Source: Pleurocapsa sp. PCC 7319
Lineage (GTDB): Bacteria; Cyanobacteriota; Cyanobacteriia; Cyanobacteriales; Xenococcaceae
Reading direction: 5' to 3'
DNA: 64,000 nt
NCBI RefSeq assembly: GCF_000332195.1
Contig: NZ_KB235922.1
Location: forward strand, 2,628,211-2,692,210
The position numbers were made by a program, and so were the translations under genes. Positions 2,729-19,796 of the stretch are shown one piece after another. Each line of letters begins with the position of its first letter. Positions within the stretch are counted from its first letter, which is position 1. The notes under the pieces are model-generated. The model was given only the letters and a program-made list of their open reading frames with translations. It was not told the DNA's origin and ran no database searches.

Positions 2729-3253
2729 ATGAGCGATAAATTTTCCACATTTCACGATTTCACCAAAACAATGGTTATCCACTATTTAAAGCTTTAGTGC
2801 AATATAAATTAAGAAAGAGAATAGAAAGACTAGCTAACTTACATCCAGAATGGAATGAGTCTGATTATGTCCAATATTTTGTCGAAAATTTTCTAAATAA
2901 GCCAGAATCTGATTCGGAAAGGCGTTTTGCTCATTGGCATTTCTTAGCTTATCTCGATTTAGACCGCTGTTATTTAATTTGGAGAAATTTTCATTATTTT
3001 CCATTTTATGCAGCCAAGTTAGAAGAGTTTTATGGTCTGACCAATGAGATTTTATGTCAATCACACAAATTAAAAAAATATCTGAATAAGTATAATCCTC
3101 AAAACGATAAAAAGGCTTCAATTAAAACTTATATTTTAAGTATACTTAAAAACTCGATTAGAGAAAAAATAGATTTACAATCAGATTGGCATTTGTTGTG
3201 TAATGTAGATATAAATAGTCTCAGAAAATTAAATAATTTTGGAATAAAATTGC
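2729..3253 (+). pseudogene. Sigma-factor-like protein, frameshifted and truncated by IS66
   Basis: A good start lies at ATG 2729, with AGGAGCAGGA just upstream: MSDKFSTFHDFTKT. The frame is lost near 2770 in an A-rich run (ACCAAAACAATGG). The continuation, NGYPLFKALVQYKLRKRIERL, lies in another frame and runs on as HPEWNESDYVQYFVENFL, AHWHFLAYL and SILKNSIREK to the IS66 end at 3253. The pattern recalls small sigma-70-like proteins that in cyanobacteria sit before DUF1822 and CHAT/CHASE2 genes (recognition by eye, not certain). The C-terminal part, where a DNA-binding region would lie, is gone. Confidence 0.5.
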
Positions 3254-4775
3254 GTAAGAATTCAGGTACTAAATTGAGGGATTAAAGAAGGGCGATCGAT
3301 AACACCGATAGTTGCCAATAAAGCTTGAGTGAAAAAATCCATCACAGAGCGACCCTGAAAACGGCAGGTTTGAATCACACTCAATAAATTAGCTGTATCT
3401 TGAAATCGTGTCATGCTGCGAGAACCACCACTTATTTTTCGTTTAGTGACTGCCAATCTTAAAGCACGTTCGGCGAGATTGTTATCAGGCGAAATTTCTG
3501 GATGGTCTAAGAAATACCACCATTGGTCTGCTTTTAATTTCAAATTCCGTAATAATTTACCAGCTTCATAACCTGCCTTCTCACTCCACTTACTCAAAGC
3601 TAAATTGATTTGAGTTTTTAATTGCGTAGTAGAATCGAGATATTGCTGCCGATGATTATTTTCACGCCATAATCGATGTTGTCGAAAAGCAGAATCCGCA
3701 ATTTCGGTCAAAGCTAGTCCCATTGATCCATTGTCAATTCCTGGTGTTTTCATGAGTCTTTGACAGTGACGACGTAAGTGAGCCTGACATTTTTGTTGTG
3801 CTGCGACCGGATAGCCATTGTACACGCTGAAATCATCGGAGATAATGATTCCCGAATACTGCGCGCCTAGTTGGTCTTCTATTTCTTTTCTCGAACGAGT
3901 ATCCCCCGCTCGAAATAAGCAAAAATTCGGATTAGCAAACACCCACAACCATTCTTTTAATCCTCTTACTGACCAAGGTGTTTCATCAATATTTAAGGTT
4001 GGATGATTCTGATTAATCCATTCTTCTAGTTCACTAATGCTGGGCTTAATAGCTGCTGAAATTCTTTGGTTACTGGCAACTAAAGTTCCTAATCCAACTT
4101 CAATTTGACCTAACTCCCGCAATAGTTCCTGCTGCTTTTGATAGGGTAGATGCCCATAGTTTCCTAGCCATCCTAGTAATCCCTGTAACTTAATTCCCAA
4201 GTCTTGTCCTGGTACAATCTGATGAGACCATTGTGGCGATGTTATTTCTCCACAACACTGACATAGAGAGTGATGACGTTGATACTCAACTATTTCTATT
4301 GGTCTTTCTACTAATACTGCTGCTGAGTTGGTTTCAATCTTGATTGATTCTGCTGAGGCTAACAGTTCTCCACAACTCAAGCACTTTTCTGCTTTGAGTA
4401 CTTCGCAGCGATCTACTCGCCCAAATCCTTTTCTTGTTTTCCCTTGATGTCCTAATTGCCCCCCGGGACTTTTTTTCGGTTTTTGAGACGATGACTTTTC
4501 TTTTCTTTCTGGTTTTTTGAGTAAATCTGATGATGGAGGCTTTGACGATATTTTACTGTCTAGGCTTCTGCTTATTTTTAGCTTCTCTATTTCTATTTTT
4601 AGCTGCTCGATGATTTCTTGTTGACTCAGTATGAGCTTCACCAGTTCCTTTTTTGACAACTGGTTGAGTTTTTCTAGTTCGTTTAACTCAGGTTCCTGGT
4701 TCATCTTACCGTTACATTACCCAGTTTTCTTAACGAGTGCAACCTTATCTCTCTTTTTAATACCTGAATCCTTAC
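3254..4775 (-). mobile_element. IS66-family element (ISBst12-like, single transposase gene)
   Basis: The imperfect ends are GTAAGAATTCAGGTACTAAA at 3254-3273 and, on the other strand, GTAAGGATTCAGGTATTAAA ending at 4775. The only gene inside is the tnpC-type transposase. The expected 8-bp target duplication is absent: AAAATTGC on the left, GTTACCCC on the right. The left end lies in the sigma-like gene and the right end in a DUF1822 gene, so DNA next to the element was probably deleted after insertion. Confidence 0.8.
3262..4704 (-). CDS. IS66-family transposase
   Basis: This 480-aa protein has the normal length for the family. In order it shows an N-terminal coiled coil (residues about 5-45), the basic linker with SKPPSSD and GGQLGHQGKTRKG typical of IS66, and a zinc-finger-like region with CLSCGELL and CQCCGEIT. 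The DDE core follows, with LNIDETPW, IISDDFSVY and the Glu in NNLAERALR. All catalytic residues appear present, so it may be active. TnpA and TnpB are absent, as in the ISBst12 subgroup. The start is ATG 4704. Confidence 0.92.
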   Translation of the reverse strand: MNQEPELNELEKLNQLSKKELVKLILSQQEIIEQLKIEIEKLKISRSLDSKISSKPPSSDLLKKPERKEKSSSQKPKKSPGGQLGHQGKTRKGFGRVDRCEVLKAEKCLSCGELLASAESIKIETNSAAVLVERPIEIVEYQRHHSLCQCCGEITSPQWSHQIVPGQDLGIKLQGLLGWLGNYGHLPYQKQQELLRELGQIEVGLGTLVASNQRISAAIKPSISELEEWINQNHPTLNIDETPWSVRGLKEWLWVFANPNFCLFRAGDTRSRKEIEDQLGAQYSGIIISDDFSVYNGYPVAAQQKCQAHLRRHCQRLMKTPGIDNGSMGLALTEIADSAFRQHRLWRENNHRQQYLDSTTQLKTQINLALSKWSEKAGYEAGKLLRNLKLKADQWWYFLDHPEISPDNNLAERALRLAVTKRKISGGSRSMTRFQDTANLLSVIQTCRFQGRSVMDFFTQALLATIGVIDRPSLIPQFST

Positions 4776-5386
4776 GTTACCCCAACCAATTATGGTTGAA
4801 AATAACAGAGGAAATACAGCAGAAATCTTGGCAGCGATCGCAATTGTATTCTAATCCTACCAGTCGATGTCAAGCGCACCTAAACGATCTCTGCTGGCAA
4901 ACTTTTATCCCTTGGTTTGAAGAAGACAGCGATCGGTCTAATTTAATTCAAACAGAGACATCTTTACTCGATCTTTGGCAATTTGTTAACGGTAGTGTTA
5001 TTAATTTAGGTCAAACTAAAATAGCATTAATTCCCAGTGAGACGACTGACATTGAAGAGTTTGATATACCTCAAGAATGGGTTGATATTCCTCAGTGGCA
5101 AGCAGATTATTATATCGCTATTCAAGTAAATTTAGACCTTTCTGATGAAGCTTGGATGAGAGTCAGAGGATACGTCAGTTATCAACAATTGAAAGATCGA
5201 GGAGTATACGAACCAAGCGATCGCTCTTACTATATCAGTCAGGAATATTTAGAGTCAGATATCACAGAGATCTTATTATCTCCACAACCAGTTGCTCAAA
5301 CCAAACAGGAATTAGTAACGACAACGGAATTATCTTTAGCAACAGCTGATCGGTTGTTAGACTCAAGAAATACGGTTAATAATTAA
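4776..5386 (+). pseudogene. DUF1822-family protein, N-terminus lost to IS66 and C-terminus deleted
   Basis: The conserved body includes LNDLCWQTFIPWFEED, LDLWQFVNGSVINLGQTK, FDIPQEWVDIPQWQADYY and MRVRGYVSYQQL. These mark the cyanobacterial DUF1822 family, whose function is unknown. The apparent start inside the insertion sequence is an artefact; native sequence begins at 4776. The protein ends soon after LATADRLLDS and the next gene fragment starts mid-domain about 10 bp later, so one deletion seems to have removed this C-terminus and the N-terminus of the CHAT gene. DUF1822 genes typically sit next to CHAT/CHASE2 genes, as here. Confidence 0.7.
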
Positions 5387-6074
5387 AGCTCGAAAAGAAG
5401 AACTATGGAAACTACCTTGGCATGTATGGGATTTGTTATCAGATTATCCCGACGTAGGTATTGGTTATAGTACTAATGAAAACTATACACCCTCTTTAAT
5501 ACAAACAATTCATAATAAAGTTAGCATTCTAGCCGTTTTTGGAGATAGTAAAAATATCGATTTAACAGAAGATCGACAAGCAATTAATAATTTAAAAAAT
5601 ACAGAACCAGTTTTTTTACACCAGCCTATTTCCAGAGAACTAATTCAACAGTTGCGCAGTCGTAGAGGTTGGGATGTGTTCTTCTTTGCCGGTCATAGTC
5701 AGAGGGAAATTAATGTTGGTAGAATTTATCTTAACGAAAGAGAAAGTTTAACGCTCGATCAGTTTAAAAATGCTCTAACAGAAGCAATTAGTAACGGCTT
5801 AAAAATAGCTATTTTTAACTCCTGTGACGGTTTAGGACTCGCCCAAAGACTAGCAGATCTCCATATTCCAGTAGTTATTGCTATGCAAGAGATAGTACCA
5901 GATCTAGTTGCTCAATCCTTTTTAAAAGAATTTTTAACCGAATATAATTGCGGACTGCCTTTATATACTGCGGTTCGCAGGGCACAAGCTAGACTAGAAG
6001 AATTTACTGATTACCCTGGTGCAACTTGGTTACCGTTGATATTCCAAAATCCAAATGTAATACCGCCCCAATGA
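5361..6074 (+). pseudogene. CHAT (caspase-like) domain, first half of a broken CHAT-CHASE2 protein
   Basis: The open frame begins without a normal start (the upstream stop is TAG 5358-5360) and enters at LWKLPWHVWDLLSDYPDV, which is normally internal in these proteins. The CHAT fold follows, with the candidate catalytic His in FFFAGHSQ (about 5692) and Cys in IFNSCDG (about 5820). CHAT domains are caspase/separase-like cysteine peptidases. The frame ends at TGA 6072-6074 after NVIPPQ. The same frame continues into a CHASE2 domain. Relatives have PPxW at this point, so the stop is probably a Trp TGG to TGA change. Confidence 0.75.
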
Positions 6075-7370
6075 AATGATTTTTTGAGTACAATTTCAGA
6101 CAAGTTACCACCACGATCTAGCCAAGTAGTTCTTTTCCAGCGAGCAAGATCTCAATGGTATCGACTTTTTCAAGCAGCTCTCAATAGTTTAGCGATCGCT
6201 AGTTTGGTGATCGGAGTGCGCTGGTTAGGTCTATTACAACCATTAGAATTATATGCGTACGATCGCCTAATGCAATTACGTCCTGGAGAAGTCAAGCCAG
6301 ATCCACGTATTTTGGTAGTTACTGTCGATAATTCTGATATCAAATATCAAGAACAGGCAGGAATGAAGTACAAAAGTTCCTTAGAATCTTTATCAGATCC
6401 AGCCCTGAACAAATTATTAGATGAACTGGAAAAGCTAAATCCTACTTCTATTGGCTTAGATATTTATCGTCCAGCCGGTTTTGATTCGGATTTATCTATC
6501 CGTCTTCAAAAAGATGAGCGTTTTTTTGCTATCTGTAAGGCTTATTCTGTTGAAAATAATAAAAACTATTTTGGAACTCCTCCACCTCAAGATATACCAA
6601 AACAACAATGGGGTTTCAGTGATGTTCTTCTGGATCGGGATCGAGTAGTCCGTCGCCATCTTTTAAGTATGATTCCCAAACCGACAGACCCCTGTGATAC
6701 TGACTATTCCCTAAGCTCATTACTTGCCTTGCATTATTTATCTGAGAAAAAAGATATCACAGCCAAACTTACCTCGGAAGGAGAATGGCAGCTTAAAAAT
6801 CTAATTCTGAAGAGATTAAATAATCATAACAGCGGATATCAAAAACTAGATGACCGTGGTTACCAAATACTTCTTAATTACCGTTTCTACTCCTCACCTA
6901 AAACCGTTGCCAATAGTATTTCACTACAAAAAGTACTAAAAGATGGAATTCCTCCTCCCCTGTTAAAGAGAATGCAACAACCAATCGTTCTGATCGGTAC
7001 TATTGCAAGGGGAGAGAATTATGATGATTTCTTTGACACACCTTACGGAAAAGAAATTCCAGGAGTTTTTCTCCAAGCACAAATGGTAAGTCAAATTATT
7101 AGTGCAGTTTTAGATGAACGTCCCATGCTGTGGTGGTGGAGCGATTTGGGTGAAGCACTTTGGATTTGGGGATGGTCAATTGTAGGAGGGATATTAGTTC
7201 TTACTAGTGCCCATAGATTATATCTGGCTTTCAACGTAACTGGCAGTTTAATAGGAATATTTGCTATCTCGTTGGTTATCTTTATTCACGGTGAATGGAT
7301 ACCTCTAATACCTCCAGTATTAGCTTTAGTAACTACTACAATAATAGTCTCTAAAACGCTACATCTTTAA
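6075..7370 (+). pseudogene. CHASE2 domain plus membrane segments, second half of the broken CHAT-CHASE2 protein
   Basis: This is in the same frame as the CHAT half; a TTG at 6084 could restart translation but has no convincing ribosome binding site. The order is a membrane helix (ALNSLAIASLVIGVRWLG), then the extracytoplasmic CHASE2 sensor starting LELYAYDRLMQLRPGE and RILVVTVDNSDI, including ANSISLQKVL and PIVLIGTIARGENYDDFFDTPYG. About three closing membrane helices follow (residues about 350-425). CHASE2 is a periplasmic sensor of unknown ligand. Unbroken relatives join CHAT and CHASE2 in one chain, so signalling to the peptidase domain should be lost here. Confidence 0.75.
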
Positions 7371-7478
7371 TAACTATTTAAATAGCATACTTTGAACAGA
7401 AAAAGCATATTTAATTAAATAACTTCTTTTTTATCATTAGCAATTTTTAATAATTATTTTTAGTTTGGAAAAAGGAAA

Positions 7479-8300
7479 ATGTCTTTATTTAAATTATCTC
7501 GACAGAGGATAATAATCGGTTTGACTATTACTTTAACCGCGATCGCTTCGCTCGTTAATGCTTCAGAAGGAAAAGCACAATCTCGACAACCAATCGACGA
7601 TATTTCTCGAACTATAAAAGTATCTTTTAATCCACCTCCTGTAGCAGACAATGGTGCTCCTGGAGGTCGCAGGAAAGGTGCAGGAAGCCATAGCTTATGT
7701 AAATTTACTAAACAAGCAACAGAGATTACTCCTCTGATTGCTCTAATGCCTGAAATACCCATAGAAACGGAAACAAAAAGTAAAACTTATGTCTGGGGAA
7801 AAACAGCTGTTGACCATCCAAATTTTTGGTTTTACGTTGCTTATCCAGCTAATACTTATGCTGAATTTGTTCTTCAGGATGAAGCGGAAAATGAAATTTA
7901 TCAAACTACTTTTACCTTAAATAAAACATCTGGGATAGTCAGCTTAACTCTTCCTAAAGATAAGATTACATTAGAAATTGATAAAAGTTATCATTGGTAT
8001 TTCAATATTATGTGCGATTCAGAAGATACAACTGATGATTTTGTAGAAGGATGGATCGAAAGAGTAAGATTGAATCCATTTATTAATAATCAACTAGAAT
8101 CAGTTCAACCCATAGAGCGTATATCTATTTATGCAGAAAATGGGCTTTGGTACGATACTTTAACTAATCTTGATCGCCTGCGACAAATAGAGCCAGAAAA
8201 TAAAGCGATCGCTAATTTATGGAGTGACTTATTGCAACAAGTTGGTTTAGATGAAATCAGTCAAAAGCCAATTGTGAAACGTTACAATTTGGAAAATTAA
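7479..8300 (+). CDS. DUF928-family exported protein
   Basis: 273 aa. The start ATG 7479 follows AAAAAGGAAA. The N-terminus is a signal peptide ending near NASEGKAQS (about residue 35). The body has GAPGGRRKGAGSH, TYVWGKTAVDHPNFWFYVAYP, the FVLQDEAENEIYQ region and YHWYFNIMC, diagnostic of the cyanobacterial DUF928 family. The role is unknown; the protein is probably periplasmic. DUF928 genes recur beside CHAT/CHASE2 and haemagglutinin-type TpsA genes, and this one lies between the two halves of such a locus. The frame is intact, unlike its upstream neighbours. Confidence 0.85.
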   Translation: MSLFKLSRQRIIIGLTITLTAIASLVNASEGKAQSRQPIDDISRTIKVSFNPPPVADNGAPGGRRKGAGSHSLCKFTKQATEITPLIALMPEIPIETETKSKTYVWGKTAVDHPNFWFYVAYPANTYAEFVLQDEAENEIYQTTFTLNKTSGIVSLTLPKDKITLEIDKSYHWYFNIMCDSEDTTDDFVEGWIERVRLNPFINNQLESVQPIERISIYAENGLWYDTLTNLDRLRQIEPENKAIANLWSDLLQQVGLDEISQKPIVKRYNLEN

Positions 8301-8337
8301 TAGAATAAATCTAAGTCATCATTACAACGCATAATCC

Positions 8338-8550
8338 ATGAAAAGAGATCGAGTAGTATCGATTTTGAATGCCCATCAAGCCGAATTGCACGATCTTGGT
8401 GTTAAGTCTCTGGAAATCTTTGGTTCAGTGGCACGAGACGAAGCCAGCCCTGATAGTGATGTTGATTTTTTAGTTGAATTAATACTAGTCTACACTTCAG
8501 TTGGGATAAGATCGGGAAAAGCGATCGCTGAAAAAAGGGCTCAAGAGTGA
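8338..8550 (+). pseudogene. MNT-type nucleotidyltransferase, C-terminally truncated
   Basis: The first 50 codons carry the nucleotidyltransferase signature IFGSVARDEAS then DSDVDFLVEL (GSxxR and SDxDxxV). This is the minimal MntA/COG1669 type that usually pairs with a HEPN toxin and AMPylates it. After FLVEL the sequence becomes ILVYTSVGIRSG and stops at 70 aa, whereas family members run to about 95-100 aa. No HEPN gene follows. It is most likely an orphaned remnant. Confidence 0.75.
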
Positions 8551-8657
8551 GCGCCATAACTGAAGAAGAAAGAATAGATTTAGATGGCTTGTTGATAGCG
8601 CGATCGTCTAAAATAATTAGGATTATAAAAAAGCGATTTCTAAAGCAACAATAGAGT

Positions 8658-8784
8658 GATCGCCTGCGACAAATAGAGCTAAAACAAAGTGATCGCTACT
8701 ACTTGTACTGACTGATTACAACAAGTAGGATTAGATGAGATTAGCCAAGAACCAGTTGTCGAACGTTACAACTTGGCAAATTAA
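8658..8784 (+). pseudogene. 3' remnant of a second DUF928 gene
   Basis: Positions 8658-8784 closely repeat the last 43 codons of the intact DUF928 gene (8172-8300): DRLRQIE at the front and the end of the type EPVVERYNLAN. Small deletions and stops break the frame. Tandem DUF928 genes occur in related loci, so a second copy was probably here and lost all but its tail. Confidence 0.7.
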
Positions 8785-8803
8785 TTAGTTTTCTCTGAGC
8801 CTA

Positions 8804-9589
8804 CTATGCCGCTGCTAGCTTATCTGTCAACTCAAGCTGATTCCTTGGTGTAATCCCCATCCAAATTTGCTCTTGGTAAGAGAGTTGTTTAACCTGCTCT
8901 TGAAACCAGGCTTCAAACTTTTCCTGGAGCAATCGTTGACGCATTAAATCATTGAATTGTGCGGGGATAAACTTTTCAACGCGCACGATTATCTGCCATT
9001 CTCCCACGGACACGGGAGGACGAATTTCGCTGATTTGACTGCTAGATAGTAGATAAGCCAGTGTTGGGTGAAGCGTGCCTAACTCAACTGGACCCATCAG
9101 CCCATTTGTTAATGCTTCTGAACCTTTAGAATATTCGCGAGCCAGTTCGGCAAAGGATTGTTCTCTCTCTTGAAGACGAAAATAAAGTTCAGTGGCAATT
9201 CCGTTATCTTTAGTCTGAATCAAGGAATAAACTACGCGATCAAGCTGCTTTTTGCGTTTGGAGAAGTAAGAACGCAACTGACTACCCCAAGTAGATTCTT
9301 TGAATTTTTCAACTCTGAGCCTTCGAGTTACCAAGAGTTTTAACTGTTCTTGGTTCAGACCGCACTGTTCTCCCCAGGCTTGCCTTTCTGCTTCGGAAGT
9401 CAGCCCCCAATGCCGATCAAACTCCTGGTAAGCAAGAGCTATCTCCTCCGGTGTATAGCTGATCTGCACAATTGCTTGGTCAATGATCAATTCGCACAGC
9501 AATTGGGGAATGAGCTTGTAACTAGCTAGAAGAGGAATAATTTCCTCAGCAGTGAGAGTATGATTACCGATTTGTAAAATTGCATTCAT
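8804..9589 (-). CDS. Parvulin-type peptidylprolyl isomerase (SurA/PrsA-like)
   Basis: About 261 aa from ATG 9589 (MNAILQIGNHTLTAEEI); an earlier in-frame ATG would add 14 unlikely residues. A helical chaperone-like N-terminus (residues about 1-110) precedes a rotamase segment with SFAELAREYSKGSEALTNGL, GPVELGTLHP and ISEIRPPVSVGEWQIIVRVE. There is no signal peptide, unlike SurA. In cyanobacteria this type often lies with type I secretion genes (HlyD and a peptidase-containing ABC exporter). None is present here, but the next gene on the same strand is a PPC-repeat protein that could have been a client. Confidence 0.75.
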   Translation of the reverse strand: MNAILQIGNHTLTAEEIIPLLASYKLIPQLLCELIIDQAIVQISYTPEEIALAYQEFDRHWGLTSEAERQAWGEQCGLNQEQLKLLVTRRLRVEKFKESTWGSQLRSYFSKRKKQLDRVVYSLIQTKDNGIATELYFRLQEREQSFAELAREYSKGSEALTNGLMGPVELGTLHPTLAYLLSSSQISEIRPPVSVGEWQIIVRVEKFIPAQFNDLMRQRLLQEKFEAWFQEQVKQLSYQEQIWMGITPRNQLELTDKLAAA

Positions 9590-9720
9590 GATTGGACTTT
9601 TGGTGGGAAGCGAAGCTAGCATCAGGTACATCCCTAGCTCCGCTTACTGTCAATTAGAGTGGCAATAAGCGCTAAGTTTTTAGGTGCTTATCTGGGTTGA
9701 ACCACTGCTATGAAATACTT

Positions 9721-10440
9721 TCAATAACTAGCGTCTACCTGCAACTGATAGCTGGTGTCTTCAGTGTATTGATAGACTTGGACGTAGAAGGGGTTGTCAC
9801 CGTGTAAGCTAAAGGAAAATTCTTCATCTGATATGCCTCCATTAGTTGAAGTAAAATTAGAGTCAACCTCACCTGCCTCAACAATGTTATTGTCGTTAAA
9901 ATCCTGAATTAGTTGGATATCGGCATCACTGCTCAATCCAGTGAGACTAACATTAACATTGCTGTATCGGTCAAGAATAAATCTGTAGACATCAGATGTA
10001 TCACTATCACCCACCCAGCCATTGTAGGTAAACTGGTCCCCGCGGGATAAAACTCCACCATCGACCTCGTTCGGAAGCAAGTTAGGAGGTTCTGTGAGTG
10101 CAGGATAGGGACGGCCTGGAGTAGCAGACAAGTCCAGCTCGTAGTCTAAACGACTGTTACTACTTGGAGCATAGCGCTCAACTACGGCGAAGTAATTACC
10201 TGCCGAAGCCAAATAGTTAATTGAGTCGTCCATGTTACCTCCAAGACGGGAACTTTCAATTTGTTGGTCGCTTGAATCAAACACTCTGTTGTTGTTGCTG
10301 TCTTCATACAAATAAAGATCCGCATCATCACCGGAAGTAATATTGTGGAGGTTCAAATTGATGCTGCTGGTATCACTGATGTTAAAACTGTAGACATCAT
10401 CGGTGTAAGTTTCATTTAAGTAAGTACTTCTATTGATAGG
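9721..10440 (-). pseudogene. PPC-domain (pre-peptidase C-terminal) repeat protein, cut by an insertion sequence
   Basis: At least two PPC-like beta modules are visible, with calcium-type acidic motifs: DDVYSFNIS, SGDDADLYLYEDSNNN, then NEVDGGVLSRGDQF, SDTSDVYRF and LSSDADIQLIQDFNDNN. The frame is open up to the IS630-type element at 10445. If the insertion sequence is removed at its TA duplication, the frame continues without a stop to two adjacent ATG codons ending at 11632. The protein would be secreted or surface-bound by family, but no signal peptide is seen. Confidence 0.65.
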
Positions 10441-10444
10441 ACTA

Positions 10445-11610
10445 AGTACCTAGACAAAATTAATTGTATATTCCGTACCAAAGTTTTTGAGAATATTTTC
10501 GACAGCATCTACTAAAGCAGAATAACTTTCATAAGCATCACTTTCTAACCACTTATACTTAATAAAACGCCAGAGAATTTCTATGATATTCAAATGAGGG
10601 GAATAAGTTGGTAGAAAGAAAATCTCTAGTCCTTTTTCTGACCACTCTGCTTCCTTATTCCAGAGAAAGTTATTTTGATGGATTGAAGCATTATCCATGA
10701 TTAGAATGGTCTTTTTGGTGATTTTTTCACAAAATTGGTCTATACAGGCTACAATGACGTCACTATTAATACTGCATTTAAAAGTGTATACTTCTAGTTC
10801 ATTTTGTCTGCTTAAAAAGCCTAAGACATTTAATCTTTTACTTTGTTGACTAGGGACTTCGATTTTTTGTTTTCTTTCTTGCCAGGCATAAGGGATATAT
10901 GGAATTAAACAAAAACCACTTTCATCTACGTATCTAATTTCAATTTCTCCTGTTGACTCTTGTTCTTTTAATTTGTCTAATTCCTTGACTTTTCGGTCGT
11001 AAAATTCAGGGATAGGATTTCCTCCTACCCTTCTTTTGATTCTAGACCAACCCATATAAGCTGATTTGATTATTCTTTTTATAGTCTTTTTACTTACGGT
11101 GTTTCCCCATTCTCTTAAAATTTTTGATTGGACTTTTTCCAGATTTTTGGGCGTGTCTTTTACCCAATTTTTTATTTGTTGCTGTTGCTCAACAGTAAAT
11201 AGCTTTTTTCTTCCCCGACCAGGACTATTATAAAGTCCCGAAAATTTAGATGATTCCCAAGCATTAAACCAATTGTAAATTGTATTGCGACTTACTTGAA
11301 ATATTTCCCTTAATTCTGAGATTTTATAGCCTTGATAACTTAATTTAATACAATGGGCTCTCTGTCTTACTTGATAATATTTACTCTGCTGGTAAATTCT
11401 CTTTAAAAGTTTTAATGTATCTTTGTTTAAACCCTTAATATATCTCATCTTAATCTGGTTTCTTTTATTTAGGCGATCGCCGAGCACTTTGGGTTCTCCC
11501 GAACTTTCAGCGATTGCCTCAACTTCTCCTATAATGACCCCTTAATTTAACCTGAAAATAGTCACTTAAAACTTTATCTTAAAATATACAATTAATTCTG
11601 TCTTACTACT
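10445..11610 (-). mobile_element. IS630-type insertion sequence, about 1.17 kb, complete
   Basis: TA flanks both ends (10443-10444 and 11611-11612). The ends form an imperfect inverted repeat of about 30 bp: AGTACCTAGACAAAATTAAT on the left and, reversed, AGTAGTAAGACAGAATTAAT on the right, both continuing TGTATATT. It differs in sequence and length from the frameshifting IS630 at the window ends. Confidence 0.85.
10450..11448 (-). CDS. IS630-family transposase
   Basis: About 332 aa from ATG 11448 (MRYIKGLNKDTLK). Upstream in-frame residues are unlikely because they would lie in a HIP1-containing leader. Two N-terminal helix-turn-helix regions (GYKISELREIFQVSRNTIYN and the KKLFTVEQQQQI region) precede a DDE core. 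The core has RYVDESGFCL (first Asp), TILIMDNASIHQ (second Asp) and FLPTYSPHLNIIEILW (Glu). It is a single uninterrupted frame of full family length and may be active. Confidence 0.92.
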   Translation of the reverse strand: MRYIKGLNKDTLKLLKRIYQQSKYYQVRQRAHCIKLSYQGYKISELREIFQVSRNTIYNWFNAWESSKFSGLYNSPGRGRKKLFTVEQQQQIKNWVKDTPKNLEKVQSKILREWGNTVSKKTIKRIIKSAYMGWSRIKRRVGGNPIPEFYDRKVKELDKLKEQESTGEIEIRYVDESGFCLIPYIPYAWQERKQKIEVPSQQSKRLNVLGFLSRQNELEVYTFKCSINSDVIVACIDQFCEKITKKTILIMDNASIHQNNFLWNKEAEWSEKGLEIFFLPTYSPHLNIIEILWRFIKYKWLESDAYESYSALVDAVENILKNFGTEYTINFV

Positions 11611-11800
11611 TAAATACAGTAGTTATCATCATGAGATGATTACATGGTGACAGATTTATTGAGCGTACAGAAGATTTTTACGTGGTCAACATCGAATTCG
11701 CATCGGTACGTATTGAATTATCTATTCACGTTTCATTAGTACTACAGTCCGAATTGAATCTCTCTCTGACTAAATGCCAGTTGTCATTACGTTAGTATTG

Positions 11801-11956: not shown

Positions 11957-12307
11957 TGGTATTCACCTCCTGAAAGAAGTAGGGCGATCGCCTGAGTTTT
12001 CTCTAATTACCTACTAACTTTGTTGGTTTCATTTAGTTATTGGGGTAAGGTTTTGGCATTTATGTATTTAAATGAGTGATAAGGGAATAGCTTTTTTAAT
12101 CAGTAACCTGAGAGATTTTTTCCAGATTATGGCAGAAATGTTATAAAATGTTACAAAAATTAAACATTTAAGGTGAAATAAACTAAGAATTATCTTCTTT
12201 TCGGAAATTTCTGGAGAATAAAGGTATCGGTCTGAAAAGAGAATTAACTTTTCTGAGAAATCTGACTGATTCACTTCGTAATCCCCGTCTTTCTTGAGGC
12301 TTTAGCT
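11957..12307. other. Intergenic region upstream of tpsA
   Basis: This stretch should hold the promoters of the 51-aa gene (leftward) and of the tpsA operon (rightward). It is AT-rich with one HIP1 site near 11983. No clear -10/-35 pair, operator or terminator could be assigned. A 68-aa minus-strand open frame here has no recognisable content. Confidence 0.4.
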
Positions 12308-15151
12308 ATGAGTAGAGACTGGCGAGCTAGATTTAGGAAATTCGCGATCGCGATCGCTTTGGGCGGCGTTACTATTTCTTGTTGGGAAAGTATAGTTTTG
12401 GCGCAAATTATTCCTGACGAGACTCTGGATGATGAAAGTTCTGTGGTGACTCCTGATACCATCGAAGGAATTGAGAGCGATCGCATTTCAGGAGGGGCAG
12501 CTAGAGGGAGTAATCTCTTTCACAGTTTTCGCGAATTTAGTATTGGTGAAGATAGAGCAGGATATTTTGAGAATCCAGCGGCGATCAAGAATATCTTTAG
12601 TCGCGTAACCGGTAGTGACCCTTCTAACATCTTAGGAAGGTTGGGGGTACTGGGTAATGCCAATCTGTTTTTTCTAAACCCTAATGGTATCCTGTTTGGA
12701 CCGAATGCCAGTTTAGATGTTCGAGGTTCGTTTTTAACGACTACTGCAGATGGCATTCTCTTTCCTGATGGAAATCAGTTTAGTGCGACTAACCCAGAAG
12801 CACCGCCAATTTTGACGGTTAACGTTCAGCAGCTGATTGGATTGCAGTTTGAAGGTAAAGAAGGAAAAATTGTTAATCAGGCAAAAATATTTTTAGATTC
12901 AGAGCAAAACTTAGCTTTAATTGGTGGAGAAGTCTTAATTGATGGGGGATATTTGGCTACACCTGGAGGTCGTATTGAAATAGGTAGTGTTGCGAAAAAC
13001 AGTATTGTTAGCCTGACTGAAATTAAAGAAGGATTGGATATTGGCTATGAAGGAGTCGAAAATTTCCAAGACATTAGCCTTGCTTTTGGCGCGTTGGTCC
13101 AAAGTTATGGCGAAAATACTGGGGATGTTCAAGTTCAAGGTAGAAATATTAGTCTTACTGAAGGTAGTGCAATTTCTCTTAATACTGAAGCAGGTCAAGC
13201 TGGTGATGTAAACATTATTGCTTCTGAATCGTTAACATTAGATGGTAATGCCGCAGAAGTAGAGCTTGGAAAATTTAGAACTTTAATTTTCATCGACGTT
13301 CTCGATGATGCTACTGGAGAAGGGAGCAGTATTAATATTAATACCCCAAAACTAGCAGTTACAAATGGAGCTCAAATAGCTACCACTAATGATTTTGGTC
13401 AAGGAGCAGATATCAATATCAATGCTTCTGAGGTAATTGTCGAAAAATCTTTCATTTTTGAAGATCCCATTGAAGATCCAGAAGATTTTAAAGCTTCAGG
13501 TATTTTTGCCAACGTTTTTGACGATGGGACTGGAAATGGGGGCAATTTAACTATCACTACGGAAAAACTTACTATAAATGAAGGAGCACAAATTTCTACT
13601 TCTACTGTTGGGGCTGGTAATGCAGGAGATTTACTGGTTAATGCAATAGAATCTGTAAGACTAATTGGCACAATACCAGGAACTAATAATCCTAGTTCCT
13701 TAGGTGCTGATGTAGGAGATTTAGTAACTGCAATAGGAGATGCTGGAGATTTGACTGTGAATACTCCTAAACTTGAAGTAAGAGATGGAGCACAAATCGG
13801 AACAATTGCCCAAAATGAGGGGAATGGAGGTAATTTAACTCTAAATATCTCGGATTCAATTTTGCTAACGGGTACTTCTCCCTTAGCAGAATTAGGAGGA
13901 GAAGGAAGAAGTGGTATTTTTGTTAGTGTCGAGCCATCACTAGAAGATGAATTTGGAACAATAATTCAGTCGACTGGAAATGGAGGAAATTTAAGTCTTT
14001 CCACCAAAGAATTAATTATCGAAAAAGGTGCATTAATTTCTGCTGATACTTTTAGTGTGGGTGATGCAGGTGATGCAGATATTAATGTCAATAATTTAAT
14101 CCTACGCGATGGCGGACAAATAGGCGCAGGTTCCTTATTCGGAGTCAATAATATCGATACTGAAAGAGGTAATGGTGGCACTCTCAATATTGATGCTACC
14201 GAATCTGTAGAAATTACTGGTATTGGAGATATTAACGGAGAGCCAGTAAATAGTAGTATATTCACCCTGGCTGAAAGCAATGGCAATGCAGGAGATATCA
14301 CCCTGAAAGTGGAAGACAGTATTTTCCTAGCTGGAGATAACAGCGGTCTGTTTGCCAACACTGAAGAGAATTCTACTGGCAACAGTGGTAGTATATTCAT
14401 CGACCTTACTACCGTAGTTGTTAGAGATGAAGCGCAAATAGCAGTCAACAGTGATGGTAAAGGTATAGGCGGAAATATTGATTTACAAGCAGATTTTCTC
14501 ACCCTAGATCAAGGAACTATTACTGCTGAAACTGTCAGCAGCCAAGGCGGAAATATTAACCTGACCCTTTCAGATTTATTAACGTTACGCAATAACAGTC
14601 AAATTACTGCTACCGCTGGTACTGCTCAATCAGGAGGAGATGGGGGCAATATTACAATAGATGCGCCGTTTATTATTGCTTTTCCCCAGGAAAATAGTGA
14701 TATTAGTGCCAATGCCTTTGAAGGAGATGGTGGGAATATTAGGATTAATGCCAATGGCATTTTTGGGATAGAGTTTCGCGACCAAGAAACTTCTCTGAGC
14801 GATATCACAGCATCGTCGAAATTTGGACAGCAAGGAGAAGTAGAAATTAATACCTCTGTCATCGATCCCACTCGCGGTTTAAATAACTTACCCCAAGACA
14901 CAGTAGAAGCTAAAGTTGCCGAAGGTTGCCAAACAGCAGGAGGTCAGCCAACATTAGAATTTTTCGATATTGGCACAGGGGGTTTACCGCCTAGCCCTGA
15001 CGAGCTATTCAGTAGCGAAATGGTCATCGCTGAATGGATTCCGCTCGATCTTGCAGACAAGAAGATACAAGCACCAACTTCAGAAAAAAGTTTTACAGGA
15101 GATGAGGTTAGTAATGTAACTCTGCTCAACAGTTTTCCTTGTCAGAAATAA
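12308..15151 (+). CDS. Filamentous-haemagglutinin-type TpsA exoprotein (two-partner secretion)
   Basis: 947 aa. A signal peptide (residues about 1-33, ending VLAQ) is followed by the TPS secretion domain (about 34-190) with GGAARGSNLFHSFREFSIG, YFENP, the hallmark NANLFFLNPNGILFGPNA, and LDVRGSFLTTTADGI. The rest is a long beta-helix of repeats such as GNGGNLTI, GDAGDADI and RDGAQI. The end carries GCQTAGGQPTLEF, usual in cyanobacterial members. It should be exported by Sec and threaded through the TpsB pore encoded next. No peptidase or adhesion domain is evident beyond the helix. Confidence 0.93.
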   Translation: MSRDWRARFRKFAIAIALGGVTISCWESIVLAQIIPDETLDDESSVVTPDTIEGIESDRISGGAARGSNLFHSFREFSIGEDRAGYFENPAAIKNIFSRVTGSDPSNILGRLGVLGNANLFFLNPNGILFGPNASLDVRGSFLTTTADGILFPDGNQFSATNPEAPPILTVNVQQLIGLQFEGKEGKIVNQAKIFLDSEQNLALIGGEVLIDGGYLATPGGRIEIGSVAKNSIVSLTEIKEGLDIGYEGVENFQDISLAFGALVQSYGENTGDVQVQGRNISLTEGSAISLNTEAGQAGDVNIIASESLTLDGNAAEVELGKFRTLIFIDVLDDATGEGSSININTPKLAVTNGAQIATTNDFGQGADININASEVIVEKSFIFEDPIEDPEDFKASGIFANVFDDGTGNGGNLTITTEKLTINEGAQISTSTVGAGNAGDLLVNAIESVRLIGTIPGTNNPSSLGADVGDLVTAIGDAGDLTVNTPKLEVRDGAQIGTIAQNEGNGGNLTLNISDSILLTGTSPLAELGGEGRSGIFVSVEPSLEDEFGTIIQSTGNGGNLSLSTKELIIEKGALISADTFSVGDAGDADINVNNLILRDGGQIGAGSLFGVNNIDTERGNGGTLNIDATESVEITGIGDINGEPVNSSIFTLAESNGNAGDITLKVEDSIFLAGDNSGLFANTEENSTGNSGSIFIDLTTVVVRDEAQIAVNSDGKGIGGNIDLQADFLTLDQGTITAETVSSQGGNINLTLSDLLTLRNNSQITATAGTAQSGGDGGNITIDAPFIIAFPQENSDISANAFEGDGGNIRINANGIFGIEFRDQETSLSDITASSKFGQQGEVEINTSVIDPTRGLNNLPQDTVEAKVAEGCQTAGGQPTLEFFDIGTGGLPPSPDELFSSEMVIAEWIPLDLADKKIQAPTSEKSFTGDEVSNVTLLNSFPCQK

Positions 15152-15180
15152 GCTGGTAAACATCGAATTTGATGGTTGCA

Positions 15181-15220
15181 GCACTATGGGGGAGCTAGGG
15201 AGGAGCAGGGGATTTAGGGG
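15181..15220 (+). repeat. G-rich purine stretch before tpsB
   Basis: Lies between tpsA and tpsB: a GGGGGAGCTAGGGAGGAGCA-type tract. G-rich runs of this sort (GGGAGC / GGGG) are common in cyanobacterial intergenic regions. Here it could be mistaken for coding sequence and is the reason the longer tpsB start is doubtful. Confidence 0.5.
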
Positions 15221-15254
15221 GCTAAATGAATTATTGAGCAAAAATGAGGAAACA

Positions 15255-17057
15255 ATGATTAGATTCCCGCGCTACTGGCTATACTCACTGTTAGTAGTTT
15301 TAACCAGCACCACCAATACTGGTTATCTTAGGGCACAAACTAGCGAAATTACTCAAAATAGCCTTGATTCTCGCGACAGACCTCAAATACCACCACAGGA
15401 TATCATTCCGCCATCTTCACCTCCTTCTCTACCCGAAGAACCTCCCTCTTTACCACCACCGCCAGAAGAATTACTTCCCTCTCCCAGAATTCCATCAGAA
15501 GAATTTCTCAATACAGAAGAAACAATTACTGTTACTAAATTTATCTTCACTGGCAACACAGCTGTTACTAGTGAAGAATTAAGCAAAAAATTTACTACAG
15601 ATTTAACGAACAAACCGGTTTCTTTAACCAGATTGCTCCAAATTGCTTCGGATATTGCTAGTCTTTATGCCAAACGAGGATATAGTACCTCCGGTGCAAT
15701 TATTTCGATTCCTAAAGCAACTCAACAACAAGGAACAGGAATTGTTGAAGTAATAGTTATTGAAGGGGAGTTGGCAGAAATAAGAATTCTTCCTGGGAAA
15801 GACTCTCTGAAGCTAAATAGTAACTATATCCGTTCTCGTTTAAACCGAGCTGTATCTAAGCCTTTAAATATCTACGAACTTCAAGAAGCCTTACAATTAC
15901 TACAGCTCGATCCTTTAATTGACAGTATCTCTGCTACCTTATCTGCTGGTTCTCGTTCAGAACAAAGCATACTAGAAGTAAAAGTATCAGAAGCAGACTC
16001 TTTTAATCTTCAAATTTTTGGTGATAACAATCGTTCTCCCAGTGTGGGAAGTTTTCGGCGCGGCGGCATAATTACAGAAGCAAATTTATTAGGATGGGGA
16101 GATAAAGTTAGCTTAGGTTATACCAATACCGATGGTAGCGATGCCTTTGACGTTGCTTACACAATTCCGATTAATCCCGATAACGGTACCCTGAGTTTTA
16201 CCTTCAATAACACAGAAAATGAAGTAGTTGAGTCTCCTTTTGATACCTTAGATATTGAATCAGAATCTCGTTCTTATGAACTAAGTCTGCGTCAACCCAT
16301 AATTCAAAACATCGATCGCGATACTCGCACTTTTGACGAGGTTGCTTTAGGTGCAACAGCTTTTTGGCGTAACAGCGAATCTTCTTTAGGGAACAACCCT
16401 TCTCCCTTATCTCCTGGTGCGGAAGCCGACGGCGATATTGGGATTTTTGCCCTGCGGTTTGCCCAAGAATGGACGAGACAAAATGCTAGTTCAGTTTTCG
16501 CCTTGCGTTCGGAGTTTAGCTTTGGTCTAAATGTTTTTGATGCTACTACTAACGAACAGATCGCCGGGGTTGAAAGAATTCCCGACAGTCGCTTTTTTTC
16601 TTGGCGAGGACAAGCCCAGTGGGTAAGCTTGTTAGCCCCAGATACTCTATTATTGCTCAGGAGTGGACTGCAACTAGCAAATGATGCACTGTTACCTTCG
16701 GAACAATTTAGTATTGGTGGTTTTGATACTGTCCGAGGTTATCGACAAGATCGACTGCTTACTGATAATGGTTTCTTAGCTTCAGCCGAACTTCGCATTC
16801 CTATTATTGAAGGTTTTTCCGAACCAAGAATTGTACAAATCATTCCTTTTTTTGATTATGGCCTTGGCTGGAATAACTTTGATGTACCTAATCCAGATCC
16901 TCAAAATTTGGCATCTCTAGGTATTGGCTTGCTTTGGCAAGAGGAGAATTTTAATTTTCGCTTTGATTACGGTATTCCTCTAATAGATACAGATTCGAGC
17001 GATCAAACCTTACAAGAACAGGGCTTGTATTTCTCTCTGCAATGGAATCTTTTTTGA
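15255..17057 (+). CDS. TpsB outer-membrane transporter (ShlB/FhaC/HecB family)
   Basis: About 600 aa from ATG 15255 (MIRFPRYWLYSLLVVL), preceded by GAGGA. An in-frame ATG at 15186 would add a 23-residue leader encoded by a G-rich repeat and spoil the signal peptide. The order is signal peptide, Pro/Glu-rich linker (residues about 45-85), POTRA domain starting ITVTKFIFTGNTAVTSEEL (about 90-165), second POTRA-like part, then a 16-strand Omp85-type barrel. The barrel has the motif QFSIGGFDTVRGYRQ (VRGY is the conserved tip motif) and ends LYFSLQWNLF with a terminal Phe. It secretes the TpsA protein. Confidence 0.93.
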   Translation: MIRFPRYWLYSLLVVLTSTTNTGYLRAQTSEITQNSLDSRDRPQIPPQDIIPPSSPPSLPEEPPSLPPPPEELLPSPRIPSEEFLNTEETITVTKFIFTGNTAVTSEELSKKFTTDLTNKPVSLTRLLQIASDIASLYAKRGYSTSGAIISIPKATQQQGTGIVEVIVIEGELAEIRILPGKDSLKLNSNYIRSRLNRAVSKPLNIYELQEALQLLQLDPLIDSISATLSAGSRSEQSILEVKVSEADSFNLQIFGDNNRSPSVGSFRRGGIITEANLLGWGDKVSLGYTNTDGSDAFDVAYTIPINPDNGTLSFTFNNTENEVVESPFDTLDIESESRSYELSLRQPIIQNIDRDTRTFDEVALGATAFWRNSESSLGNNPSPLSPGAEADGDIGIFALRFAQEWTRQNASSVFALRSEFSFGLNVFDATTNEQIAGVERIPDSRFFSWRGQAQWVSLLAPDTLLLLRSGLQLANDALLPSEQFSIGGFDTVRGYRQDRLLTDNGFLASAELRIPIIEGFSEPRIVQIIPFFDYGLGWNNFDVPNPDPQNLASLGIGLLWQEENFNFRFDYGIPLIDTDSSDQTLQEQGLYFSLQWNLF

Positions 17058-17078
17058 AATACCAATTTAAAACTAATT

Positions 17079-19796
17079 ATGAAAATTTTTCGTTTAATCT
17101 TAATTTGGTTTTTACTGGGTTTATTCCTTACTGCTGGAATCCTACCAGGGCGATCGCAAATACCCCAATCTCACCTAGCCAATGCCCAAAACCTGGTACA
17201 ACAGGGAAAAAAATACTACCAAGCAGAACAATTTAGTGCAGCGGTAAATAATCTACAACAAGCTGCCGATACCTTTGCTGCTTTAGGAGAAGAACAGAAA
17301 GAAGCTATCACTAGAGGCAATCTTTCCTTAGCCTATCAACGACTAGGAAACTGGCAAGAAACCCAAGCTGCGATCGCCAAAAGTTTAGCTCTTCTGAACT
17401 TTAAATACGATTTAGATACACCACAAACTTGGCAAATTTCCGAGCTAGATCCAGAAAAACGGCAAATACTAGCAAGAATAATTAATATTTATGGTCGTCT
17501 TCGGTATCTTCAAGGTGATGCAGACAATGCTTTATCTAGTTGGCAACTAGCTACTAATATTTATCAACAATTAGAAGATAGACAAGGAATTGTTACCAAT
17601 CAGATTAATCAAATACAAGCTTTACAAACTCTAGGACTTTATCAAGAAGCGACGAAAATCGGAAAAACAGTCGAACAAAATCTCGATCATCTTCCAGACA
17701 ATCTCAAATTTCAAGTATTACTCAGTTTAGGTAATGTTTATCGTTCTGTTGGCGATTTAGCAAATTCCGAAAAATATCTCCAAGCAAGTTTGAAACTAGC
17801 CAAAAATTCTAATTCTTCTAAAAATATAAGTAATATTCAACTTAGTCTGGCTGATACTTGGCATTCTTGGGGAAATTTAGAAAGAGAAAGACTATTGCCT
17901 ATTCGTTATGAATATATTCCTTGGCGTTGCGATCGCAACGTTTCCTTATCCCTTCCCCAAAAAGCTCAGGAATTGTATGACAAAGCCGAGAATAAGTATC
18001 GACAGATGTTAGAAGCAGAGCGATCGCAATTCTCTACTACAGCAATCAAAGCACAGCTTAATCTCTTAAAACTATTAATTACTAATGGTCAGTGGTCAAA
18101 AGCTCAGACACTATCTCAGAAGATAAAATTGTCTGATTTACCGAATAATAGAACCAAAGTTTATAGTCAAATTAATGATGCCAAAAGTCTAGCCTGTATT
18201 AAACAACACTATTCTCCAGAAGATATCGCGTGGAACAAAATTACTCGCTTAATAGAAACAGCAATTCATGATACAGAAGGCTTACAAGACAAGCGGGCAA
18301 AATCTTATGCTATTGGCAATTTAGGTGGATTATATGAATATTTGGCACTATTAGCACAACAGCAACAACAAAAAGTTAAAGCGCAGCAATGGATACAGCA
18401 AGCACAACAATTGACTCAGAGAGCTTTATATTTAGCACAACCTAGTCAACTACCTGATATAGCTTATCAATGGCAATGGCAATTAGGACGTTTATTAGAG
18501 GCACAAGGAAAGACACGGGAGTCTATTGCTTATTATCAATCCGCTATTCAAACTCTTGAATCTGTAAGAGGTGACTTATTAACCATCAATTCTGACGTAC
18601 AGTTTTCTTTTCGAGATAATATTGAACCAGTTTATCGACAACTCGCTCAATTACTTTTACAACAACCAATTCCTAATCTAGCTCAAACCCTCCAAATTAT
18701 AAAAAATCTTCAATTAGCAGAATTAGAAAACTATTTACGCTGTAACATCAAAAAAACCCAAGCATTAGACAAAATCGTTAATCGCACTCATTCTACAGAA
18801 GCAGTTATCTATCCAATTATTCTCGACGAACAAATTGATGTTATTCTCAAACTGCCTCATTCTGACGAACTACAATACCACAATAACAAACTATTTAAAG
18901 GAGAAGTAGTAGACGTATTGCAACGACTACAAGATAACCTAGCTAAACCCCACACTAAGAAAAAAGTTCAAGCAGATGCTGGTCAAATTTATCAATGGCT
19001 CATTGCACCTTTTGCTGTAGATTTAGAACGAGCTAAAGTTGATACCTTAGTTTTTTTTCTCGATACTCCTCTAAGAAATATTCCGATGGCTGTTCTTTAT
19101 GACGGCAAGAACTATTTAATTGAGAAATATGCAGTAGCGGTAACTTCGGGTTTAGAACTGCGAGAACCAAAAACTTTACAACGAGAACAATTAAACGCTA
19201 TGTTAGCCGGTTTGACGGAATCTCGCCAAGGCTATCCTCCTCTCAAAAATGTAGATCTACAATTGAACCAAATTAGTGCAGAAATTCCCAGCCAAATCCT
19301 TTTAGATAGAGAATTTACTGTCTCAAGTTTCCAAAATCAGCTTCAATCGCTTCCTTTCTCTGTGGTTCACATTGCAACTCATGGTCAATTTAGTTCTCAA
19401 CCCGAAGAAACCTTTATCATTGCCTGGGATAATCGCATTAATGTTAACGAATTGAGTAATTTCCTCAAAAGTCGACAAGAAACTGAATCTGAACCAATTG
19501 AGTTACTTGTTTTAGCTGCCTGTCAAACTGCTAAAGGAGATAAGCGAGCTACTCTAGGATTAGCTGGTGTTGCTATTAATGCAGGAGCCAGAAGTACTCT
19601 GGCAACTCTGTGGAAAGTTTCTGCTGATGAGTCTCCTGGCGATCTCTTAGGTCAATTTTACCGAGAGTTAAGTGCCAATCCCCATCTAACCAAAGCAGAA
19701 GCCCTACGTCGCGCTCAACTAGAATTTTTGAAGGATGATAGTCGTAATCGTCCCTATTTCTGGGCTCCCTATATTTTACTTGGCAATTGGCTGTGA
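17079..19796 (+). CDS. TPR-CHAT caspase-like protein
   Basis: 905 aa, starting 21 nt after tpsB stops, so almost surely co-transcribed. A signal peptide (residues about 1-25, GLFLTAGILPGRSQ) suggests export to the periplasm. Tetratricopeptide-like helical repeats fill about 30-510. The C-terminal CHAT domain (about 590-905) has the putative catalytic His in VVHIATHGQF (about 768) and Cys in LLVLAACQTAKGD (about 813), then the GLAGVAINAGARSTLATLW and YFWAPYILLGNW motifs. CHAT peptidases are caspase/separase relatives. In this operon it may process, regulate or protect the TpsA-TpsB pathway (inference). Confidence 0.92.
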   Translation: MKIFRLILIWFLLGLFLTAGILPGRSQIPQSHLANAQNLVQQGKKYYQAEQFSAAVNNLQQAADTFAALGEEQKEAITRGNLSLAYQRLGNWQETQAAIAKSLALLNFKYDLDTPQTWQISELDPEKRQILARIINIYGRLRYLQGDADNALSSWQLATNIYQQLEDRQGIVTNQINQIQALQTLGLYQEATKIGKTVEQNLDHLPDNLKFQVLLSLGNVYRSVGDLANSEKYLQASLKLAKNSNSSKNISNIQLSLADTWHSWGNLERERLLPIRYEYIPWRCDRNVSLSLPQKAQELYDKAENKYRQMLEAERSQFSTTAIKAQLNLLKLLITNGQWSKAQTLSQKIKLSDLPNNRTKVYSQINDAKSLACIKQHYSPEDIAWNKITRLIETAIHDTEGLQDKRAKSYAIGNLGGLYEYLALLAQQQQQKVKAQQWIQQAQQLTQRALYLAQPSQLPDIAYQWQWQLGRLLEAQGKTRESIAYYQSAIQTLESVRGDLLTINSDVQFSFRDNIEPVYRQLAQLLLQQPIPNLAQTLQIIKNLQLAELENYLRCNIKKTQALDKIVNRTHSTEAVIYPIILDEQIDVILKLPHSDELQYHNNKLFKGEVVDVLQRLQDNLAKPHTKKKVQADAGQIYQWLIAPFAVDLERAKVDTLVFFLDTPLRNIPMAVLYDGKNYLIEKYAVAVTSGLELREPKTLQREQLNAMLAGLTESRQGYPPLKNVDLQLNQISAEIPSQILLDREFTVSSFQNQLQSLPFSVVHIATHGQFSSQPEETFIIAWDNRINVNELSNFLKSRQETESEPIELLVLAACQTAKGDKRATLGLAGVAINAGARSTLATLWKVSADESPGDLLGQFYRELSANPHLTKAEALRRAQLEFLKDDSRNRPYFWAPYILLGNWL

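Follow-up and report, generated by a model that had tools for sequence, protein, structure and literature searches.

The locus analysed here lies in a 64,000-nt stretch (2,628,211-2,692,210 of contig NZ_KB235922.1; the window, whose positions are used for all features) of the 7.39-Mb genome of Pleurocapsa sp. PCC 7319, and combines a broken CHAT (caspase-like)-CHASE2 sensor with genes for a DUF928 protein, two-partner secretion (TPS) and a TPR-CHAT protein. Part of such a set, namely an ECF (extracytoplasmic function) sigma factor, DUF1822, EACC2-caspase and CHASE2, was described in 2021 by Kaur et al. (PMC8195603; here and below, papers are cited from the sections accessible to us). A caspase-CHASE2 membrane protein of Trichodesmium was noted in 2012 (PMC3501461), and a single Nostoc cluster in which WD40 genes are accompanied by CHASE2 and DUF928 has been mentioned (PMC5587647). 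In craspase, the TPR-CHAT protein Csx29 cleaves Csx30, an inhibitor of the ECF-like sigma factor CASP-sigma (PMC10028731). In Magnetospirillum a CHASE2-adenylate cyclase gene follows mtxA, which encodes an exported protein (PMC4439547). As a receptor domain CHASE2 is widespread in bacteria, and two papers still call its ligands unknown.

As in the EACC2-caspase systems, CHAT and CHASE2 of the window share one frame (interrupted now by a stop codon) and remnants of ECF sigma and DUF1822 genes lie nearby, but intact, expressible sensor genes are missing (IS66 insertion, deletion, stop codon), leaving a degraded relative of these systems. Two-partner secretion (type Vb) is predicted from the TPS domain of TpsA and the POTRA/ShlB of the adjoining TpsB. 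The window appears to hold one copy, in decay, of a modular envelope-signalling cassette of cyanobacteria, with the cytoplasmic half broken and DUF928 and the exported half whole. That this cassette joined DUF928-CHASE2 sensing to a CHAT/sigma output and an exported TPR-CHAT is the reading we favour, with moderate confidence. An earlier, sequence-only reading held that the joint function of these genes had not been described; this does not apply to the ECF sigma, DUF1822, EACC2-caspase and CHASE2 part (PMC8195603), whereas for DUF928, TPS and TPR-CHAT no literature linking them to the sigma/DUF1822/caspase set was found beyond the Nostoc cluster, the cyanobacterial CHASE2 literature having been covered in part.

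Association of DUF928 with CHASE2 receptors

The closest bond in the gene set is that of DUF928 with CHASE2. In a search of 40 genomes of the class for DUF928, CHASE2 and ShlB, all 32 genomes with DUF928 also had CHASE2, and five had CHASE2 without DUF928; per-genome DUF928 counts, in partial correlation on genome size, gave 0.79 with CHASE2 and 0.77 with ShlB. The 20-kb stretches round each listed DUF928 of the 24 less fragmented genomes and of the Pleurocapsa genome itself yielded 119 distinct DUF928 genes in 25 genomes. CHASE2 was found within 500 bp of 54 of these genes (45 on the same strand), CHAT of 32, TPS of 15, TpsB of six and DUF1822 of none; within 5 kb, TPS was found for 36, TpsB for 18 and DUF1822 for 13. 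In 19/25 genomes DUF928 and CHASE2 genes are adjacent, mostly on the same strand. Among 72,556 plasmid records, relatives of the window CHASE2 occur in 26 and of the window DUF928 in 20, with 18 shared.

The Pleurocapsa genome has 29 CHAT, 7 DUF1822, 12 DUF928, 38 TPS, 14 CHASE2 and 10 ShlB matches. Clustering was assessed against 5000 random placements of DUF928, with 12 of the 14 CHASE2 and 36 of the 38 TPS matches listed. A CHASE2 gene lies within 5 kb of nine of the 12 DUF928 genes (random mean 0.19, reached in 0/5000 draws) and full-length CHAT (19 genes) near four (0/5000), while TPS lies within 5 kb of four (5/5000) and within 12 kb of seven (0/5000), and DUF1822 within 5 kb of three (1/5000). 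With ShlB, the 5-kb count (one of the 12 DUF928 genes) lacks significance (724/5000), but the 12-kb count (four of the 12) is significant (1/5000). Clustering of the families far beyond random expectation, in this genome and across cyanobacteria, bears out the co-occurrence claimed in the sequence-only reading, which grouped all of them as one system and did not single out DUF928-CHASE2 as its strongest bond.

Seventy-eight CHAT-CHASE2 receptor loci from named genomes, most of them Nostocales, were also collected, 47 of which have at least 9 kb of flank on each side; this sample leans to DUF928 and is not independent of it, because 12 of 13 query sequences came from DUF928-bearing loci. DUF928 is immediately downstream of the receptor gene on the same strand in 68/78 loci and within 10 kb in 73/78 (46/47 long-flank loci), and DUF1822 is directly upstream in 54/78. 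Within 10 kb of the long-flank receptors, TPS is found in 26/47 and another CHAT in 23/47, with neither TPS/TpsB nor a second CHAT in 13/47. These counts bear on the alternative that DUF928 is a two-partner-secretion accessory (a periplasmic chaperone for TpsA), its closeness to CHASE2 being secondary. The frequency of TPS and TpsB within 5 kb of DUF928, the correlation with ShlB counts and the pilus chaperones among weak fold matches of DUF928 are consistent with such a role, but within 500 bp CHASE2 is more frequent than any of the other four families, and 19 of the 20 long-flank loci that lack TPS/TpsB within 10 kb have DUF928, and we regard this alternative as unlikely.

The 55 CHASE2 proteins encoded within 5 kb of DUF928 carry different outputs: cyclase (17), CHAT (14), histidine-kinase ATPase (5) and GGDEF (4), and more rarely AAA_35 (3), TIR (2), protein kinase (2) and trypsin-like (1). 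Parsimony gives 18 output-class changes on the CHASE2 tree and 18 on the DUF928 tree (shuffled mean 31.3, minimum 6), with 12 of 53 proteins lumped as ‘other’. The pairing is independent of receptor output, and the outputs are exchangeable. Kaur et al. propose cell suicide or phage defence for EACC2-caspase systems, and the present cassette could likewise be mainly such a module, its exported parts being bystanders. EACC2-caspase-CHASE2 with ECF sigma and DUF1822 is indeed classed among conflict systems (PMC8195603), and TIR, AAA_35 and trypsin-like domains recur on the DUF928-linked receptors; however, cyclase is the commonest single output, kinase and GGDEF outputs occur, and DUF928 follows the receptor in most CHAT-CHASE2 loci, so that a role mainly in cell suicide or phage defence seems improbable.

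Tree distances of DUF928 and CHASE2 agree (r 0.56, 53 pairs; within-genome partner shuffle mean 0.20, 0/2000 reaching 0.56), whereas for DUF928 and adjacent CHAT r is 0.22 (32 pairs), which 604/2000 shuffles reach. The DUF928 model contains an Ig-like sandwich followed by TPR-like helices, as in MtxA, and its best predicted fold match is MtxA (4z29). Like mtxA, DUF928 genes adjoin CHASE2 receptor genes, both in the window (Table 1) and in the 54 cases counted above. In this recurring gene set, the exported protein encoded beside the membrane sensor is probably the sensor's missing signalling partner, and we propose DUF928 as the periplasmic partner of CHASE2, a receptor without a known ligand. 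A specific exported partner, as suggested by gene order, co-inheritance and the MtxA fold match, makes the ligand question assayable by binding.

Predicted export of CHAT proteins and modularity of the set

A signal-sequence caller was positive for 42/46 TPR-CHAT, 92/119 DUF928 and 28/36 other TPS proteins, and for 13/22 TpsB, 3/8 TPS-CHAT fusion frames, 0/15 CHAT-CHASE2 receptors and 144/600 background frames; TPR-CHAT, DUF928 and TpsA of the window were flagged and its TpsB was not. TPR-CHAT thus looks exported, which would place two CHAT proteins on opposite sides of the membrane. The His/Cys pair is conserved in 46/46 TPR-CHAT and 16/16 receptor CHAT domains, and TPS and CHAT share one open frame in at least 19 of 60 TPS matches, in 10/10 genomes. 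Because CHAT domains are common on the export route, TPR-CHAT is likelier to act on an exported substrate (e.g. TpsA) than on one in the cytoplasm or in a host; a host-protein target, suggested in the sequence-only reading, would be unlikely if TPR-CHAT is exported as its signal-like N-terminus suggests. Exported CHAT proteins and TPS-CHAT fusions would put caspase-like proteases outside the cyanobacterial cytoplasm. Examples of fusions are L116:6932-11014 and L060:4063-9042 (TPS-TPR-CHAT), exoproteins with their own caspase-like domain, and in L101:1204-5631 a TPS domain, POTRA and the ShlB barrel lie in a single 1476-residue frame, a one-protein form of two-partner secretion.

Two loci, L218 (Nostoc sp. 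XA010) and L220 (Nostoc favosum), carry DUF1822, receptor, DUF928, TpsA, TpsB and TPR-CHAT complete, on one strand and in the order of the window, with 38-48% identity to the window for DUF928, TpsB and TPR-CHAT, 44% for CHASE2 and 30-32% for TpsA; their DUF1822 gave no BLAST alignment with that of the window. At L048 (genome G006) the same order, from long-type sigma through DUF1822, receptor, DUF928 and TPS to CHAT, is kept on the plus strand, but the stretch contains no TpsB. Nine further loci combine receptor, DUF928, a second CHAT and TPS/TpsB, eight of them including DUF1822. A gene at the sigma position, within 2.5 kb upstream, was found in 38/78 receptor loci. In 15 of these it belongs to a long family, as does the window fragment, and in 23 to a short one, which also provides the gene ahead of DUF1822 in L218 and L220. 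The position is thus occupied by two distinct gene families, the long one matching sigma70-ECF and the short one without clear family match. The long ECF-like sigma of L048 (4406-5629) has a weak, sub-cut-off match to the type III-E CRISPR-associated sigma family NF041236 (4.2e-6, 26.8 bits; cut-off 100).

TPR-CHAT also occurs with TpsA and/or TpsB where DUF928, CHASE2 and DUF1822 are absent from the 20-kb stretch (L028, L032, L034, L036, L037 and, broken, L038). These sensor-free loci, and the 13/47 receptor loci without TPS/TpsB or second CHAT, indicate a set of modules and not the one obligate system that had been claimed; the six loci go some way towards a tpsA-tpsB-CHAT trio that regularly stands without upstream genes, the finding named in the sequence-only reading as one that would refute it, but co-occurrence exceeds chance. 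That there is no joint function, envelope and mobile-like genes merely gathering in the same variable regions, fits a window rich in insertion sequences (IS), the TPS-CHAT pairs without sensor, the sensors without TPS or CHAT and the orphan DUF928 genes (38/119), but is quite unlikely in view of the adjacent, mostly same-strand DUF928 and CHASE2 genes, the tree agreement for CHASE2 that is absent for similarly close CHAT, the TPS-CHAT gene fusions and the conservation of the window order in L048 and, starting at DUF1822, in L218 and L220.

State of the window copy

Pfam places DUF1822 (half), CHAT, CHASE2, DUF928, TPS, ShlB and TPR-CHAT in the order seen in the sequence-only reading (Table 1), which was also right on their state: damage affects the sigma-factor, DUF1822 and CHAT-CHASE2 genes, and TpsA, TpsB and TPR-CHAT are whole. 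DUF928 is whole as well, and the second DUF928 gene noticed in that reading is present as a 128-bp remnant. TpsA had been called giant; its length of 947 residues shows that it is not.

Table 1 Features of the proposed envelope-signalling locus and of intervening elements in the window.
Feature	Position	Strand	Evidence and remarks
Sigma-70/ECF-like gene, N-terminal remnant	2740..3252	+	Profile of ~400-aa relatives, E 1.3e-33
IS66-family element	3253..4776	-	Transposase 3262-4704, PF03050 3.6e-35; between sigma remnant and DUF1822
DUF1822 gene, C-terminal half deleted	4778..5383	+	PF08852 2.6e-41, profile 1-189 of 370
CHAT part of CHAT-CHASE2 receptor, putatively of EACC2 type	5361..6071	+	PF12770 1.3e-10; ~120 N-terminal residues deleted
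CHASE2 part of receptor, open frame	6075..7367	+	PF05226 3.3e-58, whole Pfam domain
DUF928 gene, intact	7479..8300	+	Signal-like N-terminus, Ig-like sandwich and four helices; proposed CHASE2 partner
3' remnant of second DUF928 gene	8657..8784	+	blastn 81% identity over 130 columns, E 3e-31
IS630-type transposase	10450..11487	-	PF13358 1.6e-34; between DUF928 and tpsA
tpsA, two-partner-secretion exoprotein, 947 aa	12308..15151	+	PF05860 8.9e-54
tpsB, outer-membrane transporter with POTRA	15186..17057	+	PF03865 5.8e-26, PF08479 1.8e-9
TPR-CHAT protein, intact His/Cys dyad	17079..19796	+	PF12770 1.7e-51, TPR; signal-like N-terminus

The sigma remnant covers positions 27-172 of 391 in a profile built from its relatives; searched by itself it has no Pfam match and reaches merely 0.069 with NCBIfam sigma70-ECF (TIGR02937), which two intact relatives match at 3.7e-32 and 6.7e-29. 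The IS66-type element, bounded by 30-bp terminal inverted repeats (3253-3282 / 4747-4776), interrupts this gene after profile position 172, with its other end at the start of DUF1822. Most simply, a single deletion removed the C-terminal half of DUF1822 and the N-terminus of the receptor, since the two genes now join out of frame near 5360-5390. The extent of the receptor loss was judged by alignment with intact L132 and L024; 15 relatives of the receptor are single frames, and receptor relatives have an N-terminal region that may be the EACC2 domain. An in-frame TGA (6072-6074) divides CHAT, which retains the His and Cys of the dyad, from CHASE2 (AlphaFold2 model, predicted local confidence, pLDDT, 93.5), the frame of which may have stayed open by selection or by chance.

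DUF928 and tpsA are separated by the IS630-type transposase and other unrelated open reading frames, including, on the minus strand, a PpiC-type rotamase (8804-9631) and a PPC-domain frame (9721-10356). In L218 and L220 the DUF928-TPS gap is ~10 bp, placing the rotamase and PPC frames outside the cassette there. More transposase-like fragments (helix-turn-helix, DDE_5 and ISL3 types) at 118-1449 and 19820-20116 and a partial pyridine-nucleotide oxidoreductase (2094-2519) suggest that the region is eroding.

Proposed mechanism and comparison with known systems

In the sequences surveyed, CHASE2 receptors with exchangeable cytoplasmic outputs adjoin, and are co-inherited with, DUF928 genes; one output type is CHAT, accompanied by DUF1822 and, at some loci, by a sigma-type gene upstream; and TPS exoproteins and a second, signal-bearing TPR-CHAT cluster with the DUF928-CHASE2 pair. 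We envisage that exported DUF928 would use its Ig-like sandwich and short helical repeat to act as a periplasmic co-receptor or ligand of CHASE2, its binding or release altering the receptor and switching on the cytoplasmic output. In the CHAT version, the cytoplasmic CHAT would cleave itself or the DUF1822 protein and so free the ECF sigma factor; we infer these proteolysis and sigma-release steps by analogy with craspase and its TPR-CHAT protease, which cleaves an inhibitor of a sigma factor. The neighbouring surface exoprotein may be among the targets, and exported TPR-CHAT would work on the outer side, its simplest substrate being TpsA, either while this crosses TpsB or afterwards. In the window, receptor switching and sigma release would have been lost, with DUF928 and the outer half remaining. 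More tentatively, as a possibility somewhat short of likely, Ig-TPR proteins that are exported, namely DUF928 in cyanobacteria and MtxA in magnetospirilla, may be periplasmic CHASE2 partners across phyla and, in cyanobacteria, the pair with its interchangeable outputs may govern surface proteins of the two-partner type, which either contain an exported caspase-like peptidase or encounter one, with CHAT proteases on both inner-membrane sides of one pathway.

Several observations weigh against the favoured reading. Thirty-eight of 119 DUF928 genes are orphans, with no CHASE2 within 5 kb or TPS/TpsB/CHAT within 10 kb, and no Pfam family recurs among the 62 genes nearest to them (maximum 3 of 62); the receptor of an orphan DUF928, if any, may be encoded elsewhere. 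(Three genes flanking orphans are alanine-racemase-like.) In the Pleurocapsa genome 3/12 DUF928 genes have no listed CHASE2 within 5 kb. Linked inheritance without contact can by itself give the DUF928-CHASE2 tree agreement; similarly close CHAT genes show no such agreement, which speaks against linkage alone, but that comparison has fewer pairs (32 vs 53). Foldseek puts 4z29 second (E 5.4e-4, template-modelling score 0.33 on the query), after a glucuronidase, and a DUF928 profile search of the PDB lists no 4z29 chain at E up to 10, making the likeness one of fold only. TpsB is within 10 kb of merely 3/47 long-flank receptors, the short upstream family (23 of 38) was not confirmed as sigma by Pfam or NCBIfam, and the signal caller is crude, missing the TpsB of the window, 9/22 TpsB frames and 5/8 TPS-CHAT fusion frames. 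A Rhizobium CHASE2-cyclase (L142:5065-7368) adjoins a FecR-like secreted protein (7405-8502) in place of DUF928, and a Burkholderia CHASE2 receptor lies beside a LysM-FecR protein (PMC5192318), so DUF928 is not the sole CHASE2 partner. The L142 genes are convergent; the FecR-like label was given by eye and recalls the LysM-FecR/CHASE2 kinase pair.

EACC2-caspase systems share with the window locus a caspase-like domain, variable C-termini that include CHASE2, and ECF sigma and DUF1822 genes; their constant N-terminal region may correspond to the one that receptor relatives have and that is deleted in the window. However, DUF928, TPS exoproteins and a second, exported TPR-CHAT are not mentioned in the accessible sections (PMC8195603), and the window copy is broken. 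In the Trichodesmium protein, likewise, CHASE2 and its flanking transmembrane helices come after a caspase-like domain; the protein was interpreted as a membrane receptor, but in the text at hand is described as a lone architecture, with no mention of neighbours or a partner (PMC3501461). Craspase is compared with the cassette for its working logic, as a CHAT protease with an ECF-like sigma and a third protein, an inhibitor the cleavage of which relieves the sigma; it is RNA-guided and is not a membrane receptor (PMC10028731), whereas TPR-CHAT here appears exported. Dgc2, a CHASE2-GGDEF protein of Leptolyngbya boryana, is a CHASE2 receptor with unknown ligand that controls motility and biofilm, with no partner protein reported in the sections available (PMC10581220). 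In the BiofilmReg operon an exported protein also lies beside a CHASE2 receptor, a histidine kinase, and the output controls surface behaviour, but that partner has FecR and LysM domains and the output is two-component (PMC5192318). MtxA is from a different phylum, was studied for magnetotaxis and has no detectable sequence similarity to DUF928, but like it has a signal peptide, an Ig-like sandwich joined to a TPR fold, and a gene adjoining that of a CHASE2 receptor (PMC4439547).

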